The position numbers and the translations under genes were made by a program. The notes under the pieces are model-generated. The model saw nothing but the letters and a program-made list of their open reading frames with translations, ran no database searches and was not told where the DNA came from. From Candidatus Daviesbacteria bacterium RIFCSPLOWO2_01_FULL_39_12 (lineage in GTDB: Bacteria > Patescibacteriota > Microgenomatia > Daviesbacterales > UBA10151), in contig MFDM01000010.1 of the NCBI GenBank assembly GCA_001776905.1, positions 16,291 to 48,957 on the forward strand: a stretch of DNA of 32,667 bases. The letters run 5' to 3'. Below, piece by piece: positions 1,859 through 16,986 of this stretch. Each line of letters starts with the position of its first letter. Within the stretch, counting starts at the first letter, position 1.

Positions 1859-3037
1859 CTATAGCTGAAAATCTTTTCTAAAACCCAGTAAGGAATATAA
1901 CTTTTTTAAATCTTTGGCTGATTTTTTTCTGGCCAGTTTTAACAAAAAGTCCAAAGCCTTGGGGGTATTAAGATCCTCCTCCATGATTGCTTGGAATTTT
2001 TTCAGATTGTCTCCGTCCTCCTTTACTTTTGCACTTTCCCTAAGCCGGATGGTTGTCTCTATTAATTTGACCTTATTCTCAATCTGTCCCAAGTTATCCT
2101 GGGTAAACTCCCAAGGCGAACGATAGCGGTGTGACAAAAGCAGCCATCTGATGGTGTTGGGGGAGTATTTTTTCAATAAATCTTTGACCATAATTAAGTT
2201 ACCCAAAGATTTGGCCATTTTTTCACCCTGGAATAAAACCATACAAGTATGCATCCAAAAATTAACGAAAGGAGATTCAACAGTGTAACTTTCAGATTGG
2301 GCAATTTCCGATTCATGATGAGGGTAAATTAAGTCCCTGCCTCCTCCGTGAATATCGATGGTACGACTTCGCTTACTACCCAAATACTGATGAATCATGG
2401 CAGAGCACTCTATATGCCAACCAGGCCTGCCCTTGCCCCAGGGACTGTTCCAGCTTGGTTCATCCTTTTTAGATTCCTGCCACAAAATAAAATCCAGTGG
2501 ATCAATCTTGAGCGGATCTTGAGGATTACCCCCTCTTTCTTGGGAAAGGATTAACATCTCACGTCTGTTGCAGCGGGATAACTTGCCATAAGTTGGAAAC
2601 TTTTTAATTTGAAAATAAATATTGCCATTCCTTTGATAAGCCGCTCCTTTTTTAAGTAGCGATTTAATGATTTGAATTATTTTATCTATGGAATCTGTGG
2701 CCTTAATCAAACGGGTGGGAGGCAGGACATTTAAAGAGTGCATATCCTGAAGATATCTTTTGGTCCAGAAATTCCCCAGATCCTGCCAATTTTTCTTAAC
2801 TTCTTTGGCTTTTTTTAAGATGTCATCATCAATGTCTGTGATATTTTGCACATAAGTAACTTTATATCCTTTGAATTTCAGATACCTTAGCAAAACATCA
2901 AAGAAAACATATGTAAAGGCATGGCCTAAATGAGTTATATCATAGGGAGTGATACCACAAACATACATGGTGACAATCCCCTCTTGAAGGGTTTTAAATG
3001 GTTCGATTTTACGAGTCAGAGAGTTGTATAATTGCAT
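1859..3037 (-). CDS. cysS: Cysteine ligase of the CysRS/MshC superfamily
   Basis: Class I synthetase-fold enzyme that activates cysteine with ATP. The start is placed at the ATG at 3037, giving MQLYNSLTRK, the usual CysRS N-terminus, with an extended -10 just upstream; an ATG 7 codons earlier is less likely. In this 392-residue numbering the zinc ligands are C27, C211, H240 and E244, the HIGH-like motif is HLGH and the KMSKS motif is KMAKS. The DALR-like segment (EEDLNTPKALDFLLKLA) is present, but the protein ends there, without the anticodon-binding tail that brings CysRS to about 460 residues. CGITPYDITHLGHA and NVLPPTRLIKATD resemble MshC (the Cys:GlcN-inositol ligase of mycothiol synthesis) more than textbook CysRS (CGPTVYDxxHIGNAR), while PHHESEIAQSE is CysRS-like. 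It is divergent from a LmbE deacetylase. A reduced tRNA synthetase or an MshC-like thiol ligase are both possible. Confidence 0.85.
   Translation of the reverse strand: MQLYNSLTRKIEPFKTLQEGIVTMYVCGITPYDITHLGHAFTYVFFDVLLRYLKFKGYKVTYVQNITDIDDDILKKAKEVKKNWQDLGNFWTKRYLQDMHSLNVLPPTRLIKATDSIDKIIQIIKSLLKKGAAYQRNGNIYFQIKKFPTYGKLSRCNRREMLILSQERGGNPQDPLKIDPLDFILWQESKKDEPSWNSPWGKGRPGWHIECSAMIHQYLGSKRSRTIDIHGGGRDLIYPHHESEIAQSESYTVESPFVNFWMHTCMVLFQGEKMAKSLGNLIMVKDLLKKYSPNTIRWLLLSHRYRSPWEFTQDNLGQIENKVKLIETTIRLRESAKVKEDGDNLKKFQAIMEEDLNTPKALDFLLKLARKKSAKDLKKLYSLLGFRKDFQL
3027..3032 (+). promoter_or_regulatory. Possible -10 box of the LmbE gene
   Basis: A perfect TATAAT 26 nt before the ATG at 3059, located inside the first codons of the divergent ligase gene. 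This would give a leader of about 20 nt. Confidence 0.35.
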
Positions 3038-3048
3038 GAGGATTTTTA

Positions 3049-3057
3049 ATTTTAGCA
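3049..3057 (-). promoter_or_regulatory. Extended -10 of the cysteine ligase gene
   Basis: Read on the minus strand, TGC followed by TAAAAT (TAAAAT at 3054-3049) ends 11 nt before the ATG at 3037. This fixes the start at the second in-frame ATG, because the upstream one lies ahead of or inside the promoter. Confidence 0.5.
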
Positions 3058-3058
3058 T

Positions 3059-3766
3059 ATGAAAGCATTATTTGTTTTTGCTCATCCGGATGATGAAACT
3101 TTCTCATCGGGCGGAACTATAGCCAAATTGAGCAAAAGTGGGGTTATAGTTAAACTGATCTGTGCTACCAAAGGAGAAGCAGGCACGGTGGGAGATCCGC
3201 CCTTAACAACTCAGGACAGGTTGGGTGATGCCCGGGAAAAGGAGCTGCGAAAAGCTGCCAAAATTTTGGGTATTTCCCAAATCTATTTCCTGGGATTTAT
3301 AGACGGAACGCTTCATCAACTGCCCATTGGGAAACTGCAGGAGCAGATCCTGCTAATTTTACAAAAAGAAAAACCGGATATGGTGGTAACTTTTGATAAA
3401 AGGGGTGGATCGAATCATCCGGATCATAAAGCGGTTTCCAAAGCTACCACCAGATCTTTCCAAAAGTATTTGGGTTCAACTAAAAAGTGGATCCGTTTGT
3501 ATCATACGGCTATCCCCAGAAGTTATCTAAAAGAATATGAAAAACACGGACTATCCTATACAGCTTTTGGTACCATTAAAGGGGTGGCGGATACCCAAAT
3601 AACCACTATTTCTGATATTAAAGATACCTATGATATTAAAGTTAAGGCAGCCAACTGTCATAAAACTCAAAGAAAAGATTGGGAGAGATTTTTAAGCCGG
3701 GCAGATGTGGTGGATGTCAAAAAAGAATTTTTTATGCTGATTTTGGAAAACAAATTAGGCTGGTAA
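3059..3766 (+). CDS. LmbE/PIG-L family zinc deacetylase
   Basis: Zinc-dependent N-deacetylase of the PIG-L/LmbE family, whose members remove acetyl from GlcNAc-containing conjugates (GlcNAc-PI, GlcNAc-inositol in mycothiol, GlcNAc-malate in bacillithiol). The 235 residues carry the zinc and catalytic motif AHPDDE (H9, D11, D12) and the second motif HPDH (H120-H123). The KGEAGTVG and LGDAREKEL segments are typical of the family. It starts within 22 bp of the divergent MshC/CysRS-like ligase. In actinobacteria MshB (this family) and MshC act in consecutive steps, so the pairing is suggestive. The substrate is not readable from the sequence. The reading frame stays open for 45 codons past the TAA stop (see findings). 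Confidence 0.9.
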   Translation: MKALFVFAHPDDETFSSGGTIAKLSKSGVIVKLICATKGEAGTVGDPPLTTQDRLGDAREKELRKAAKILGISQIYFLGFIDGTLHQLPIGKLQEQILLILQKEKPDMVVTFDKRGGSNHPDHKAVSKATTRSFQKYLGSTKKWIRLYHTAIPRSYLKEYEKHGLSYTAFGTIKGVADTQITTISDIKDTYDIKVKAANCHKTQRKDWERFLSRADVVDVKKEFFMLILENKLGW

Positions 3767-9538: not shown

Positions 9539-9568
9539 ACCATACCAAATAATACCCGAACTTGTCAA
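9539..9568 (-). promoter_or_regulatory. Promoter of lexA
   Basis: On the minus strand, TTGACA (9568-9563) is followed after 18 nt by TATGGT (9544-9539), which ends 9 nt before the lexA ATG. The spacer contains GTTCGGGTATTATTTGG, which partly matches sequence upstream of uvrA. Confidence 0.55.
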
Positions 9569-9586
9569 CCCCCCAAATTTACTATC

Positions 9587-9615
9587 TTGCCAAGTGGAGT
9601 AAATTATGTTATAGT
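9587..9615 (+). promoter_or_regulatory. Promoter of the giant surface-protein operon
   Basis: TTGCCA (9587-9592), a 17-nt spacer and TATAGT (9610-9615), preceded by TGT to give an extended -10. It lies downstream of the TTG codon at 9562 that opens the longest reading frame, so translation must begin later, most likely at the GTG at 9646. Confidence 0.6.
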
Positions 9616-9645
9616 AATTTTTTACTGCTCAGAAAAAATACTTTA

Positions 9646-12600
9646 GTGTACAAACAACTGTATAATAAAATTTATAAGGCCCTTTCTTTTATATCAGGAA
9701 TTTTACTGGTTTTCTACTCTTTGGCCCCCAGCATGCTTTATGCCCAGGAAGCTACACCTACCCCCAGTCCGTCTGAAGAGCCGGCTGTTTCATCAAGCGG
9801 TGAACTCCAGGAAAGTCCTACTCCAACTCCCGAATCAACTAATGCACCGGAACCTTCTTCATCTGTCTTGCCGGAAGCATCGCCCACTCCAACTCCTTCA
9901 CCTGTTCCTTCAAGCGAGCCTTCACCAACCGATCAAGTGGAAGGCATTAATACACCCGATGAAACTGTCGGTCAACCAAATGCTCCACCGGAGATAAGTC
10001 CGAGTCCCTCTTTAACTCCCCAACCTTCACCTGACGTGGAGGTGGAGCAAACTGCCCAGGGTCATCTTTCAGCCACAATTTTAGAAAATACCGATGCCCA
10101 AAGTTTAGAGTTAGATCTGACAACCCAAGATGTATCTTCCAGCTCTCTAATTACAGATAAAGCCGATTATGCGCCCACGGACACTGCGGTCATCACCGGA
10201 TCTGATTTCCCGAAACAGACTGAATTGAAGCTAGTAATTACAGCTGATAATTACCGTTTTGAAACAAACGTCACCACAGATGAAAATGGCTCCTTTATTT
10301 ATTCTTACCAGCTGGATGGGACCTACAGACCATTATATAAAGTAGAAGCTTATGACATCTCCGGTACCCTTTTGGCTACAGTAACCTTTACAGATTCTGG
10401 TCCGAAAATTACAGCTAAAACTCACCAAGGTCAGAAATCAGATAATTCATGGACAAGTGGGAATGTAACAACTTATCAAGAGGGAGACACAATTAATTTT
10501 CGATTTAATGCCAAAGTGGAAAATGCACCTGCAAGTGGACAGCTTGAGGTTAGGTTTTCAGAGAATGATGGAACTTGTCTGTTTTTTGATAACTATTTTG
10601 TTTTAGGTGCGACCGAAAATGTATCTGGAACAACACCAAGCGTTAGTGTTGTGAGTGGCCCTACGGTTTCAAGTGGAGAGTGGATTGTCATTTTAAATAT
10701 TTCAGGCTCAACTAATGGTGAAGGAAGAATTAATTACCAACTTAGGCTTTCTAATCAGGCGGGGCAATGTAGTGGATCCTCCCAACATAGTCGGTTGAAT
10801 CCAGCTGGTGGCGATGTAGAGCAGAGTGGACAACAAAATGTTCCGGTGCCTGCGCAGCAAGTTATAGAACTCCCAGATATAACAGTAACAAAAAATATTG
10901 ATAGAGATGGCAATGGAAGTTTTGAATCAACAGCTATTGCCGAAGAATACTCTTTTACACTCGACGGGACAACAACTTTATCAACAAATGCCAGTGGACA
11001 AGTTATATTTACAAATATTACACCTAATGGAGCTCACTCTATTACTGAAACCCAATTGGATTTTTCCCAAGGGACTTATCAATTTATTTCAGGTAGCGGA
11101 GTAAATTGTACCTTTGTAGGATCAACTGCTACAGCTACAGTATCTTCCGGCACAACCGCCACAAATGCCAGTTGTAATTTTAATAATGCTCAACAAAACG
11201 GAACAGTTATTGTTCACAAGGATGTTCAGGGGCCAAATGGGGAAGTAATAGATGATATATCGCAAAACTTTACGGTCAGACTTGACAGTGCCAATCCTCA
11301 AAGTTTAACTGATAATGATAGCTATACATATAATAATGTAGCTGCTGGATTGCACACTATAACCGAAAATACACCTCCTTCTGGCTATACTCTTTATGGA
11401 ATTAGCACAACCCCGGGTGGATCAGGCAATACCGGAGGGCTTTCTGTTAGCGTTACAGCAGGACAAACAACTGATGTTTATGTTACAAACCGCCAGCAGC
11501 AAACAAAACTGACACTAACCAAAACCGTCATTAATAACAATGGCGGCACAAAAGTGGTTTCTGATTTTGTCCTGAAAATTGATGGCAACCAAGTTACCAG
11601 CGGAGTTGCTAATAATGTTGCTTCAGGATCCCATACAGCAAGTGAAGTTAATCGGGCAGGTTATTCTGCATCTTCCTGGGGAGGAGATTGTAATACTGAC
11701 GGAACAATTACACTTGCTTTAGGTGATAACAAGACTTGCACCATTACAAATGATGATATTCAGCCTAAATTAACAGTCACAAAAGTGGTTGTTAATGATA
11801 ATGGGGGAATAAAAGTTGTTTCAGATTTTCCATTATTTGTTGATGCAACTTCGGTAACCAGCGGTGTTCAAAATGGATTTAATGCCGGAACTTACAATAT
11901 CTCGGAGACAAGTCAAAACGGATATACAGCAGCTATATTCGGAGATTGCGCCGAAAATGGAAGCATTACATTATCTGTGGGAGATGTTAAATCCTGTACT
12001 ATTAATAATAATGATCAGCCGGCTCATGTAATAGTCATCAAAAATGTAACAAACAATGATAATGGGACAAAAACTCCTTCAGACTTCACAATGCATATTG
12101 ATGGAACGGCCGTTGGTACAGGAGTCAGCTTTGCAGGAGCTAGTGGTTTAGGTACTAGTACTACAGTTAATGCCGGTAGTTTTACCGTTACCGAAGACCC
12201 GGTAGCCGGCTATAGCGGTAGTCTGTCCGGAGATTGTTCAGGTACTATTGCTAATGGAGAAACAAAAACTTGTACAGTAACCAATGATGATCAGCCGGCT
12301 AATTTGATAGTTATCAAGCATGTGGTAAATGATAATGGAGGCACTGCTGCTGCAACTGACTTTACCATGTATATTAATGGTACCTCAGTCGGTACAGGGG
12401 TGAGTTTCCCCGGAGCGGAAAGTCCCGGTATAAATACTACGGTTAAAGCAGGCAGCTTTACAGTTGCTGAGGATTCAGTGCCTGGATATTCAGCATCTAC
12501 ATCTGGAGATTGTTCAGGTACTTTAGCCAACGGAGAAACCAAAACTTGTACTATTACTAATAATGACCAGGCTGCCAATATTATTGTGATCAAGAATGTG

Positions 12601-15600
12601 ACAAATGATAATGGCGGTTCAAAAAATCCCGGTGATTTTATGATGCATATTAATGGAACTTCAGTTGGGGTAGGGGTAAGTTTTGCGGGAGTAACAGGAG
12701 CAGGTGTAAACACCCAGGTTAATGCCGGCAGCTTTACAGTTACTGAGGATTCAGTTCCTGGATATAGCGGCAGTTCTTCTGGAGATTGTAGTGGATCAAT
12801 AGCTAATGGGGAAACAAAAACCTGCACCTTTACTAACAATGACCAGGCTGGGCATTTGATTGTTCATAAGGTTACTGATCCTTCCGATACAACCACCCAG
12901 TTCTCAATTACTGCTTCAGGAACTGCATCGGTGACCACTCCAACTCGGGATATTTCCGGCGGTTCAAGCGTTGATTACACTGTTGATGCAGGAACATATT
13001 CCGTATCAGAAGCAGATCTTGCAGGTTGGGATGAGACAGGAAATACCTGTTCAAATATAGTAGTTGTAAATAATGCTACTGAGGAATGTACTATTACTAA
13101 TACCAAACGTGGCCACGTTGTTATTGTAAAAGATTCAATAAATAACAGCACTCAAGATTTTACTTTCCGCAATGATTTTGGGAATGAAAACCCTGCAACT
13201 TTTGTACTAGATGATGATGGCCCTAGCGGCAGCGTGACCCCAAAAGAGAGAGATTTTGAAGTTTTGCCTGGGACGACCTATGCAGTATCTGAGGATGAAG
13301 TTTTGGGTTGGCAACAGGAAAGCCAAACATGCAATCAGGGAGAAACTGTTGATAGTATAGATGTAGCTCCCGGAGAAACAGTGACTTGCACTTTTGTTAA
13401 TGAAGAATTTGCCAAGATCATCTTAGTTAAAAATACAATTGGCGGTAATGGCACATTTGATTTCTTAATGAGCGGAGATGGTTTGCCAGCTGGAGCTCAA
13501 CTGACCACCTCATCTAATACTGCTAGCCAGACCTTCAGTGATTTGGATCAAGATAATACTTATTCCATTGCAGAGATAACACCTGACCCTGATGAGTGGG
13601 AATTAACAAGTGCCAGTTGTACTGGTACCAATACACCAACATCGATTACTCCTAGTCCAGGCGAAACAGTTACCTGTACCTTTACTAACACCAAAGAACC
13701 AAAGTTAACTGTCACCAAGATTGTTGTTAATGATAATGGTGGGATAAAAGAAATATCTAGTTTCCCGTTATTTGTGGATGGAGACTCTGTGATATCCGGA
13801 GTTCAAAATACTTCCACAATTGGTGTACATGTGGTATCTGAAACTGGGGATCCGGATTATACTGCTACCATTGGTGGAGATTGTGATGCCCAAGGAAATA
13901 TTACTTTAGCTGCTGGGGATGTGAAAGAATGTACTGTTACCAATAATGACAAGGTACCTTCCTTAACTCTTAACAAGGTTGTTGTTAATGATAACGGCGG
14001 CACTAAAGAAGCAAGCGACTGGTCGCTTTATGCCTCCGCTGGCAATGTTGGTATTGGCGGAACAGGTCCCACCGTATCTTCCGATCCCACCTTTAGCGCC
14101 GGAATTTACACTCTGTCTGAAGTTGGCCCTTCCGGATACAGCCCATCCGGTTGGGTTTGTGAAGGCGGAAGCCAGGAGGGGGATACAATTACCCTGAGCC
14201 TTGGCCAATCAGCCACCTGTACTATCACTAATGATGATATAGCACCAACTTTAACCTTAATTAAAACAGTTGTCATCAATGATGGTGGTACGGCCACAGA
14301 AGCTGACTTCCAAGCTTATATTAATGACAATCCTACTTCCTGGAATCAACCACAAACTTTATCAGTTGGCGACTACACTGCTAGTGAATTAGCCAATGTT
14401 AGTGGTTATACCCCTTCCGAATGGACAGGTGATTGTGATGCTGACGGCAATGTCAGTTTGGCTGAAGGCGAGAACAAAACTTGTTATATTACCAATGACG
14501 ATCAGTCAGCTCATCTCATTCTGGTTAAGAACCTGCCAAACGATAACGGAGGCATTGCTACCCAGGATGACTTCGGTGTTTTTATTGACGAGCAAGAAGC
14601 GTTTTGGGGTGACAACGAAGTTGATGCTGGTTCCCACACAGTCAATGAAAGCACGCTTGCCGGTTATACACCATCAGGATGGGGTCAAGACTGTAATGAG
14701 AACGGTAATGTGACTCTTCTGCCAGGAGAGACTAAGACTTGTACTATCACTAATGATGATCAACCCGGGTCAATTACGGGGACAAAATGGAATGATTTGG
14801 ATAGTGACGGTCAAAGAGGTGAGGAGCCGGGACTTGATGGTTGGCACATTCAGCTTTTTGAAAACAATGATGGTGACAAGGGTGTGCAAATCGGAGCTGA
14901 TGAAGTTACCAATGTAGACGGTGATTATTCTTTTAGTCAGGTAAATGCGGGTGATTACTTTATCTGTGAGGTTCCTCAAACAGGTTGGGTTCAAACATAT
15001 CCTGTGGAAACATGTCACGCAGTCACTGTGGAGCTAGAACAGCAGTTGACTGATTATAATTTTGGTAACCAGATGCGTGGTACCATAACCCTCGTTAAAG
15101 ATGCTGTTCCTAATAATTCCCAGGATTTCACTTTTACTAGTTCTCAGCTGGGTACATTCAAACTGGATGATAACGGTAATGCGACATTAAGTAATACCAA
15201 AGTATTTAGTAATTTAGGATCAAATACTTATACCATAACCGAAAGCGCTGTCTCAGGGTGGAAATTGACTAACCTTGTTTGCACCGGAGATGACAATGCA
15301 ATCATTGATCTTAATGGACGTTCTGTAACACTTAATTTAGATCGTCCCGGTGAGGATATTTCTTGTAAATTTACCAATACTAAGTATGGCTCTATTCAAG
15401 GCCGTAAATATAACGATTTAAATGGTAGCGGGACTTATCAGGAATCTACAGAGCCGTCGCTTGATGATTGGACAATACATCTGTTTAACAATTTATGGGG
15501 AGAGGTAGCTAGCATGGAGACAGGAGATGATACAACTCCTGCCGGTAATGTGAGTACTGGTCAATATAAATTTGTTAATCTTTTGCCTGGTGTCTATTAT

Positions 15601-16986
15601 GTCTGTGAAGATCTGCAGATAGGCTGGACTCAGACTGATCCATCTTCCGGACAAATACGGAACAATACCTATTGCCGCCAGCGTACCGTAAATGCTGGCC
15701 AAAACATCACAGGTGTTCTTTTTGGAAATCAGGGTAGGGGGACAATTACTGTTCATAAAAATGTTGATGTAAATGGGGATGGTGATTTGGAAGATGAAGG
15801 TATAGATATCATAAATTCTACGGATTGGACTTGGGATATTAACAATGAAGGGGATTTTGCCACAGGCGACAACTCTCAGGCAGTAGCAGCAGGGGATTAT
15901 ATTGTTTCCGAAGATCCAAAAGATGGCTATCATATAACTTCAGTTGAGTGTAACGAAGCAGAGTTTGAAACATCAGAAAGCATTGAAATAAATGTGGAAG
16001 CCGGGGATAACCTGGTTTGTACCTTTACCAACACTCGTGACAGTGGAGATCTTCGTGTTAATAAAGTGACTGACAGCGATGGTGACGGTCAGTATGACAC
16101 CACCAATCCGGAGAATTTCCTGTGGGGAACAGAAGCCGAGGCAACCAGTTACAATATGGGGTCAACTCAAACGCTGATTAGTGGAGATTACAGTGTTTAT
16201 GAAAATAGCGTTCCCGGTTATATTTTCACCGGTTGGTTCCCGGGAGATCCTGTTGATAGCCAATATAGTTGTACTAACTTGCCGGAAGGTGATATCTATA
16301 CCCAACTGCCTGTTGCTCTAACAGTTGTGAGGGATGAGCCAATGGAAATTACTCTTTGTAACCAGCTGCTAAATCCAATTCTAACTATTTCCAAGTCTAA
16401 TGATAAATCAGGCATTGATGTGTCAGCCGGAGCAAGTGTAGTCTATACTTTAACCGTCACACTGACAGGCAGCTCTCTAAACGATGTGTCTGTTGTTGAC
16501 CTGCCACCGGCAGGATTTATTTACCGATCCGGTTCTTGGACAGCCAATTCTTCTGTCCGGGGAGACTTAAAGCCCGGGACAACCGGGGAACCCACCTATG
16601 CTTCTCCGGGAGTTTGGAATTTAGGCGATATGCAAAGCGGTGAAGTAGTGACTTTAACTTATATTGTGGATATTGACGGTTCTACAGATCCGGGACTGTA
16701 TAAAGATTTAGCCTGGGCTTCCGGAACCAATCTGGCTTCAACCAAGGTTTTGGCAAATGAGACATCAGGACTGTTTGTCGGAACAGAGGTAAATGTGGTC
16801 AAAGACCAAGGATCAAGCACCGGGGTAGAAGTAGAGAGGATAGAAGAAGGTAAGTTATTGGGAATTTCTACTGCTCTTCCTGCCACAGGCGCGAACACCG
16901 TCTGGTTAATTCTGGCTGCTTTAATGCTGTCAAGTGGAGCCGGACTTATTTTCGCAGGGATAACTATAAGGAAAAAATATGACTAA
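9646..16986 (+). CDS. Giant LPXTG-anchored surface protein with SpaA/Cna-B-like repeats
   Basis: About 2446 residues, predicted to be exported and covalently anchored. In order: a signal peptide ending near SMLYAQ; a Pro/Ser/Thr/Glu-rich stalk (about residues 35-140); beta-sandwich modules; roughly 19 prealbumin-like modules of 80-105 residues (10880-16370), of which two (from 14767 and 15388) resemble SdrD B-domains; a DUF11-like module (from about 16375); then LPATG (16876-16890), a hydrophobic span and the tail RKKYD. Most modules open with a Lys in a VxK strand, carry a Glu in SETxxxGY-like segments and end in TCTITNDD, the Lys-Glu-Asn layout of self-forming isopeptide domains, plus a likely Cys pair (GDC/TC). 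The GTG start is inferred from the promoter. A second surface protein and a sortase follow in the same operon. Probably an adhesin or host-contact fibre. Confidence 0.9.
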   Translation: MYKQLYNKIYKALSFISGILLVFYSLAPSMLYAQEATPTPSPSEEPAVSSSGELQESPTPTPESTNAPEPSSSVLPEASPTPTPSPVPSSEPSPTDQVEGINTPDETVGQPNAPPEISPSPSLTPQPSPDVEVEQTAQGHLSATILENTDAQSLELDLTTQDVSSSSLITDKADYAPTDTAVITGSDFPKQTELKLVITADNYRFETNVTTDENGSFIYSYQLDGTYRPLYKVEAYDISGTLLATVTFTDSGPKITAKTHQGQKSDNSWTSGNVTTYQEGDTINFRFNAKVENAPASGQLEVRFSENDGTCLFFDNYFVLGATENVSGTTPSVSVVSGPTVSSGEWIVILNISGSTNGEGRINYQLRLSNQAGQCSGSSQHSRLNPAGGDVEQSGQQNVPVPAQQVIELPDITVTKNIDRDGNGSFESTAIAEEYSFTLDGTTTLSTNASGQVIFTNITPNGAHSITETQLDFSQGTYQFISGSGVNCTFVGSTATATVSSGTTATNASCNFNNAQQNGTVIVHKDVQGPNGEVIDDISQNFTVRLDSANPQSLTDNDSYTYNNVAAGLHTITENTPPSGYTLYGISTTPGGSGNTGGLSVSVTAGQTTDVYVTNRQQQTKLTLTKTVINNNGGTKVVSDFVLKIDGNQVTSGVANNVASGSHTASEVNRAGYSASSWGGDCNTDGTITLALGDNKTCTITNDDIQPKLTVTKVVVNDNGGIKVVSDFPLFVDATSVTSGVQNGFNAGTYNISETSQNGYTAAIFGDCAENGSITLSVGDVKSCTINNNDQPAHVIVIKNVTNNDNGTKTPSDFTMHIDGTAVGTGVSFAGASGLGTSTTVNAGSFTVTEDPVAGYSGSLSGDCSGTIANGETKTCTVTNDDQPANLIVIKHVVNDNGGTAAATDFTMYINGTSVGTGVSFPGAESPGINTTVKAGSFTVAEDSVPGYSASTSGDCSGTLANGETKTCTITNNDQAANIIVIKNVTNDNGGSKNPGDFMMHINGTSVGVGVSFAGVTGAGVNTQVNAGSFTVTEDSVPGYSGSSSGDCSGSIANGETKTCTFTNNDQAGHLIVHKVTDPSDTTTQFSITASGTASVTTPTRDISGGSSVDYTVDAGTYSVSEADLAGWDETGNTCSNIVVVNNATEECTITNTKRGHVVIVKDSINNSTQDFTFRNDFGNENPATFVLDDDGPSGSVTPKERDFEVLPGTTYAVSEDEVLGWQQESQTCNQGETVDSIDVAPGETVTCTFVNEEFAKIILVKNTIGGNGTFDFLMSGDGLPAGAQLTTSSNTASQTFSDLDQDNTYSIAEITPDPDEWELTSASCTGTNTPTSITPSPGETVTCTFTNTKEPKLTVTKIVVNDNGGIKEISSFPLFVDGDSVISGVQNTSTIGVHVVSETGDPDYTATIGGDCDAQGNITLAAGDVKECTVTNNDKVPSLTLNKVVVNDNGGTKEASDWSLYASAGNVGIGGTGPTVSSDPTFSAGIYTLSEVGPSGYSPSGWVCEGGSQEGDTITLSLGQSATCTITNDDIAPTLTLIKTVVINDGGTATEADFQAYINDNPTSWNQPQTLSVGDYTASELANVSGYTPSEWTGDCDADGNVSLAEGENKTCYITNDDQSAHLILVKNLPNDNGGIATQDDFGVFIDEQEAFWGDNEVDAGSHTVNESTLAGYTPSGWGQDCNENGNVTLLPGETKTCTITNDDQPGSITGTKWNDLDSDGQRGEEPGLDGWHIQLFENNDGDKGVQIGADEVTNVDGDYSFSQVNAGDYFICEVPQTGWVQTYPVETCHAVTVELEQQLTDYNFGNQMRGTITLVKDAVPNNSQDFTFTSSQLGTFKLDDNGNATLSNTKVFSNLGSNTYTITESAVSGWKLTNLVCTGDDNAIIDLNGRSVTLNLDRPGEDISCKFTNTKYGSIQGRKYNDLNGSGTYQESTEPSLDDWTIHLFNNLWGEVASMETGDDTTPAGNVSTGQYKFVNLLPGVYYVCEDLQIGWTQTDPSSGQIRNNTYCRQRTVNAGQNITGVLFGNQGRGTITVHKNVDVNGDGDLEDEGIDIINSTDWTWDINNEGDFATGDNSQAVAAGDYIVSEDPKDGYHITSVECNEAEFETSESIEINVEAGDNLVCTFTNTRDSGDLRVNKVTDSDGDGQYDTTNPENFLWGTEAEATSYNMGSTQTLISGDYSVYENSVPGYIFTGWFPGDPVDSQYSCTNLPEGDIYTQLPVALTVVRDEPMEITLCNQLLNPILTISKSNDKSGIDVSAGASVVYTLTVTLTGSSLNDVSVVDLPPAGFIYRSGSWTANSSVRGDLKPGTTGEPTYASPGVWNLGDMQSGEVVTLTYIVDIDGSTDPGLYKDLAWASGTNLASTKVLANETSGLFVGTEVNVVKDQGSSTGVEVERIEEGKLLGISTALPATGANTVWLILAALMLSSGAGLIFAGITIRKKYD
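11503..14766 (+). repeat. Tandem array of 12 related modules in the giant gene
   Basis: Consecutive modules begin near 11503, 11764, 12019, 12298, 12571, 12850, 13111, 13411, 13699, 13954, 14242 and 14506. Modules at 12019, 12298 and 12571 are the closest copies (shared NGETKTCT and SVPGYS-type segments), implying recent duplication, while the flanking ones have diverged. Confidence 0.85.

Follow-up and report, generated by a model that had tools for sequence, protein, structure and literature searches.

A cysteine ligase of the MshC lineage is co-inherited with a LmbE-family deacetylase in CPR bacteria

The genome of the CPR bacterium Ca. Daviesbacteria encodes a cysteine ligase of the MshC lineage that is distinct from the cysteinyl-tRNA synthetase (CysRS) of the cell, and our computational comparison of related genomes showed that this ligase is inherited together with a LmbE-family deacetylase. 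Among the related actinobacterial enzymes, one frees an amino sugar and the other attaches cysteine to it. The joint retention and loss of the two genes points to a protective thiol, similar to mycothiol, that these bacteria would synthesize themselves. We consider it about two-thirds probable that the pair catalyzes the two final core reactions of a mycothiol-like pathway, with the ligase acting after the LmbE enzyme as a tRNA-independent cysteine:amino-sugar ligase.

The window analyzed here is a 32,667-nt stretch of one contig of this genome (designated G000; 34 contigs totaling about 1.0 Mb, completeness about 95%), and the two genes lie back to back in it with the following features.

1859–3058, minus strand: ORF of the MshC-type cysteine ligase (399 aa), a CysRS paralogue without the anticodon-binding domain
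2942–2959, minus strand: CGITPY loop (residues 34–39), including the zinc ligand Cys34; its counterpart is C43-GITPY of M. smegmatis MshC (PMC9736012)
2918–2935, minus strand: HIGH-type motif THLGHA (residues 42–47), from the homologue alignment
2405–2407, minus strand: zinc ligand Cys218 (C231 of M. smegmatis MshC), invariant in 19 homologues
2306–2320, minus strand: H247-H-E-S-E251, with the zinc ligand His247 (H256 of MshC) and the CysRS-type fourth ligand Glu251, from the alignment
2207–2221, minus strand: KMSKS-type loop, reading KMAKS (residues 280–284), from the homologue alignment
3038–3058, no strand: gap of 21 bp between the divergent start codons, if the ligase starts at Met8
3059–3766, plus strand: LmbE/PIG-L family de-N-acetylase, MshB/BshB2-like (235 aa; PF02585, 129 bits)
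3083–3094, plus strand: metal-site motif HPDD (residues 9–12); H9, D11, and D12 are invariant in 22 LmbE proteins
3416–3427, plus strand: metal-site motif HPDH (residues 120–123); H120, D122, and H123 are invariant in 22 LmbE proteins

In the alignment, the ligase homologues have a start codon equivalent to Met8 and begin there, so the ligase gene likely spans 1859–3037 (392 aa, with the start codon at 3037). The first-pass annotation of this DNA had correctly described the genes as divergent but had placed them 22 bp apart; the spacing is 21 bp when counted from Met8 and 0 bp when counted from the first ATG. Similarly, the CysRS-like zinc site that it had numbered H240/E244 is present and invariant in the 19 homologues, the residues being H247 and E251 from the first ATG. 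Both ligase motifs that it had quoted were found exactly: residues 34–47 read CGITPYDITHLGHA, and NVLPPTRLIKATD is likewise present. A tRNA-Glu gene (1780–1854 of the window) is convergent with the ligase gene, its end lying 4 bp from the ligase stop codon, and a very long ORF of 2474 aa occupies positions 9562–16986.

The ligase resembles MshC of M. smegmatis (PDB 3c8z/8hfm; TIGR03447), which is also derived from CysRS, about 400 aa long, devoid of an anticodon-binding domain, and furnished with a CGITPY loop. The zinc- and cysteine-binding residues named for that enzyme are C43, G44, T46, T83, C231, and H256 (PMC9736012), and their counterparts are invariant in the 19 ligase homologues, as are C34, G35, T37, P38, and Y39 of the loop and all four of Cys34, Cys218, H247, and E251. 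An ERGG-P stretch and a similar C-terminal end are further shared features. The KMAKS sequence recurs in the ligase of G029, and most other homologues have KMSKS. Domain profiles gave no match to CysS_C and only a partial, sub-threshold match to DALR_2, in agreement with the absence of the anticodon-binding tail claimed in the first-pass annotation, and the ligase-type proteins end at about 370–411 aa in all 19 members. In contrast to these similarities, the window ligase is about 35–37% identical to the M. smegmatis enzyme, falls under the family cut-off, and keeps a glutamate as the fourth zinc ligand, a residue that is common to basal Acidimicrobiia MshC. The nearest named homologue of the ligase comes from a Candidatus Levybacteria contig, which, like the genome size of about 1 Mb, is in line with an assignment to the CPR.

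A reduced second CysRS, used for back-up, stress, or specialized charging and located beside LmbE by accident, was considered as an alternative; in its favor, the window ligase retains the catalytic core and all four CysRS zinc ligands. The ligase scored 384 bits against PF01406, passed the NCBIfam cysS cut-off (440.5 bits versus 340), and missed that of the MshC equivalog TIGR03447 (367.3 bits versus 485.1); furthermore, its best PDB match by sequence is a CysRS. However, two Acidimicrobiia MshC proteins also scored below the MshC cut-off (421–422 bits) and above the cysS cut-off (358–366 bits), and therefore the NCBIfam scores are poor classifiers here and were rejected for separating MshC from CysRS. 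The zinc-site glutamate was likewise rejected as an argument for CysRS, because basal actinobacterial MshC proteins retain it (HHECEIAQSE); the residue is probably ancestral and thus no evidence against MshC identity. The AlphaFold (AF2) model of the ligase (pLDDT 90.7) gave TM scores of 0.88/0.85 with MshC (8hfn) and 0.87/0.90 with CysRS (1li5), and because the values were about 0.85–0.90 with both cores, fold comparison was also set aside as a discriminator. With the NCBIfam TIGR03447 and TIGR00435 cut-offs, automated annotation may mislabel Acidimicrobiia MshC.

Phylogenetic trees separated the short ligases from CysRS. In a quick tree of 114 rows, 62 of which were labelled as short ligase or MshC, 61 of these 62 and a longer Chloroflexota ORF (L110) were split from all others with a support of 96; the Chloroflexi row L173 was the sole short-labelled row on the CysRS side, where the other rows were CysRS. 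A careful tree of 59 rows, which included CPR and Chloroflexota short ligases, actinobacterial MshC, and CysRS, placed all of the short ligases and MshC on one side of a 100/100 split and all CysRS on the other. Within the former, the closest relatives of the window ligase formed a clade (100/99), as did actinobacterial MshC, including the solved M. smegmatis enzyme (98/93). A tree constrained to unite the CPR short ligases with CPR CysRS was 101 log units worse and was rejected (AU test, p = 2.9e-6), and a grouping of the CPR short ligases with Actinobacteria without Chloroflexota was not rejected (p = 0.075). The tree agrees with the first-pass description of the ligase as MshC-like. Both traits tested for CysRS were missing, as the ligase lacks CysS_C and does not group with the CysRS of its lineage, and its placement, domain loss, and residues put it in the broad MshC family of CysRS-derived, tRNA-independent cysteine ligases.

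The genome of the window contains one other cysS-family gene (G000:C3:44093-45232), which is full length and has CysS_C, the anticodon-binding domain, just above the cut-off; full-length CysRS entries were likewise obtained for each of the 19 genomes with the ligase. The loss of the anticodon-binding domain, together with the presence of a separate full-length CysRS, suggests that the ligase does not serve tRNA. In view of this second cysS, the missing domain in 19/19 members, the rejected union with CPR CysRS, and the co-inheritance with LmbE described below, a reduced tRNA synthetase paired by chance, which the first-pass annotation had offered as its alternative, is unlikely.

The distribution of the ligase was surveyed in 113 related genomes, with the short ligase called at an E-value of 3e-115 or lower. 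It was present in 19 of them, and the next matches were full-length CysRS with E-values of 1e-92 and weaker. Among 380 genomes sampled across the phylum, it was found in eight of the class of the window and one of another class. LmbE (PF02585) was detected in 57 of the 113 genomes. Every one of the 19 ligase-bearing genomes had it, compared with 38 of the 94 others (Fisher p = 3.8e-7, with relatedness ignored beyond the family and genus splits). Within the window's own family (f1), the values were 12/12 and 6/33 (p = 6.5e-7), and within genus g26, they were 7/7 and 1/5 (p = 0.01), or 7/7 and 0/5 with a stricter LmbE search. The most telling case of coupling is the rplT–pheS site of g26. In most g26 genomes that encode the ligase, LmbE occupies the gap between rplT and pheS, far from the ligase gene. 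Where the ligase is missing, no LmbE is found in the gap: no gene separates rplT from pheS in G025, G037, and G043, and a different gene lies there in G041. In G029, both genes lie inside this gap, in the order rplT-LmbE-ligase-pheS.

Adjacency of the ligase and LmbE genes was observed in at least seven genomes, where the orientation is either divergent (G000, G010, and G059) or co-directional (G029, G034, G049, and G073), and also on contig L104. The paired deacetylase is BshB2-like in the window, G010, G059, and G049, and BshB1-like in G029, G073, G028, G040, and L104, so either subtype of deacetylase can accompany the ligase. Three observations in combination favor a functional pair: the genes are linked in several different layouts, they are inherited together even where unlinked, and one deacetylase subtype can take the place of the other. 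Conservation of the cysS-lmbE pair in relatives was thus confirmed, both as adjacency and as unlinked co-occurrence, and it clearly exceeds what chance would give. The first-pass annotation had named three findings as contrary to its proposal, namely a sole cysteine ligase in the genome, its firm grouping with CPR CysRS, and no conserved link to lmbE, and the reverse was observed in each case. Operon context was dropped as a guide to the product, because no gene besides LmbE is conserved across families in the CPR and Chloroflexota neighborhoods.

The deacetylase of the window, the sole PF02585 gene found in G000, passed the PF02585 cut-off and has intact AHPDDE and NHPDH motifs, as had been noted from the sequence. 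Like MshB and BshB (TIGR03445, TIGR04000, and TIGR04001), it has the LmbE/PIG-L fold with AHPDD and HPDH, and BshB2 is its best NCBIfam model. Unlike them, it scored below the cut-off in all four thiol-deacetylase models (BshB2, 118.6 bits, cut-off 195; MshB, 90.8 bits, cut-off 224; Mca, 75.7 bits; BshB1, 67.5 bits). Its AF2 model (pLDDT 93.9) matched diacetylchitobiose deacetylases best by E-value and MshB (1q7t) best by query-normalized TM score (0.76). In the mechanism that we propose, LmbE would deacetylate an N-acetylglucosaminyl compound (GlcNAc-X) by means of its zinc site. The ligase would then activate cysteine as cysteinyl-AMP in its CysRS-like, zinc-containing active site and pass the cysteinyl group to the freed amine, yielding Cys-GlcN-X, a low-molecular-weight thiol, and tRNA charging would be left to the separate full-length CysRS. 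This chemistry, an amino sugar as the acceptor, and a role in redox reactions or detoxification are our inferences. The earlier suggestion that the pair may make a cysteinyl-aminosugar thiol is supported by the second cysS, the tree, and the lmbE link, the product itself remaining putative.

LmbE enzymes have many other substrates and, as noted above, also occur in genomes that lack the ligase, which speaks against the proposed pathway. Enzymes of the LmbE fold act on chitobiose and glycopeptides, and chitobiose and teicoplanin deacetylases are among the best PDB matches of the model; moreover, no complete thiol pathway was found in G000. The LmbE enzyme could accordingly unmask an amine on a glycan, glycolipid, or secondary metabolite to which the ligase adds cysteine, in place of a small redox thiol. 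However, all MshC-clade enzymes that have been studied act in mycothiol synthesis, and no conserved cell-envelope or biosynthetic cluster surrounds the pair, so that an acceptor of this kind seems rather improbable.

Under the preferred reading, a mycothiol-like thiol, the remaining steps of known thiol pathways were searched for in the 113 genomes. The bacillithiol pathway (BshA-BshB-BshC) similarly proceeds from a LmbE-type deacetylase to ligation of cysteine to a glucosaminyl compound. In contrast, the ligase here is CysRS-derived, BshC was detected in 0/113 genomes, and BshA exceeded the cut-off only in G016 among the relatives, with none in G000 at the thresholds used; the bacillithiol pathway was rejected because of the absence of BshC. 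The BshA gene of G016 (G016:C3:157267-158370) occurs in a genome with LmbE, no BshC, and no short ligase, possibly representing another incomplete thiol pathway.

Genuine mycothiol (AcCys-GlcN-inositol) synthesis, whether taken over from Actinobacteria and Chloroflexota or held in common with them, would fit the presence of an MshC-type ligase and LmbE. Some related genomes also encode a MshA-like glycosyltransferase: such proteins, scoring 259–313 bits, occur in 7/19 ligase-bearing genomes versus 7/94 without the ligase, counting one weaker match of 212 bits (p = 0.002). All 14 carriers have LmbE (p = 2.8e-5), and the one example tested scored 313 bits for MshA and 108 for the next NCBIfam model. 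In five carriers (G034, G020, G099, G066, and G083), four of which have the ligase, a histidine phosphatase (PF00300) adjoins the MshA-like gene. No enzyme has been assigned to the dephosphorylation step of mycothiol synthesis (PMC7278568), and this phosphatase, which would suit a step of that kind, is a lead. At the loci concerned (L229, L231, L232, L233, and L187), the two genes are directly adjacent in varying orientation.

However, inositol-1-phosphate synthase (Ino1) was detected in 0/113 genomes, with the C. glutamicum positive control detected, although inositol uptake from a host is possible. No protein in the 113 genomes exceeded the MshA cut-off (462 bits), and the ligase misses the MshC cut-off. 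The search for MshA-like glycosyltransferases, suggested in the first-pass annotation, thus succeeded for 7 of the 19 ligase-bearing genomes and not for G000, where the best match was 98 bits. Because Ino1 is absent, X is probably not myo-inositol made de novo, and the pathway is probably not textbook mycothiol; synthesis of the genuine compound is quite unlikely. The first step in G000 may be performed by another GT4 enzyme, be encoded in the missing few percent of the genome, or be replaced by precursor uptake. Across the genomes surveyed, glutaredoxin was not associated with the ligase. Complete mycothiol gene sets (mshA–D) have been reported only in Actinobacteria, mshC having the broadest distribution among the four and mshD being missing from most mshC-bearing genomes (PMC6282198).

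The closest non-CPR homologues of the ligase are short CysRS paralogues of Chloroflexota (e.g., L105, L106, and L108), which share 47–51% identity, a similar length, and the same motifs. Unlike the CPR pairs, they have no adjacent LmbE, with one lying within 4 kb (L123). Many Chloroflexota encode short ligases on the MshC side (L105–L119, L123, L126, L153, and L181), and actinobacterial MshC appears to be nested among them; the family may be older than Actinobacteria or fall outside them. We tentatively propose, as a possibility somewhat short of probable, that a Microgenomates (CPR) lineage makes its own cysteinyl-glucosaminyl thiol with a non-inositol aglycone by means of an MshC-type ligase paired with interchangeable LmbE deacetylases, and that this ligase belongs to a wider Chloroflexota–CPR–Actinobacteria family and is not an actinobacterial invention. 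If this is true, bacteria whose genomes are among the smallest devote genes to a thiol of their own, and Chloroflexota and Microgenomates will have to be added to a revised MshC phylogeny. We found no earlier report of MshC or of a low-molecular-weight thiol in CPR in the open-licence literature searched. Automated annotation names such proteins cysteine--tRNA ligase, and the trait is therefore hidden in databases.

Two further arrangements were observed. In L078 (G075), L079 (G090), and L080 (G098), a LmbE gene of another type lies beside, or one gene from, the full-length cysS, and recR is found in that region, too, accompanied by dnaX in G075 and G090; these genomes are of different families, and two are without the short ligase. 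Meanwhile, a contig binned as Micrarchaeota carries a LmbE–ligase pair (L104:5301-7167) that branches inside the CPR clade, and this contig is probably mis-binned.
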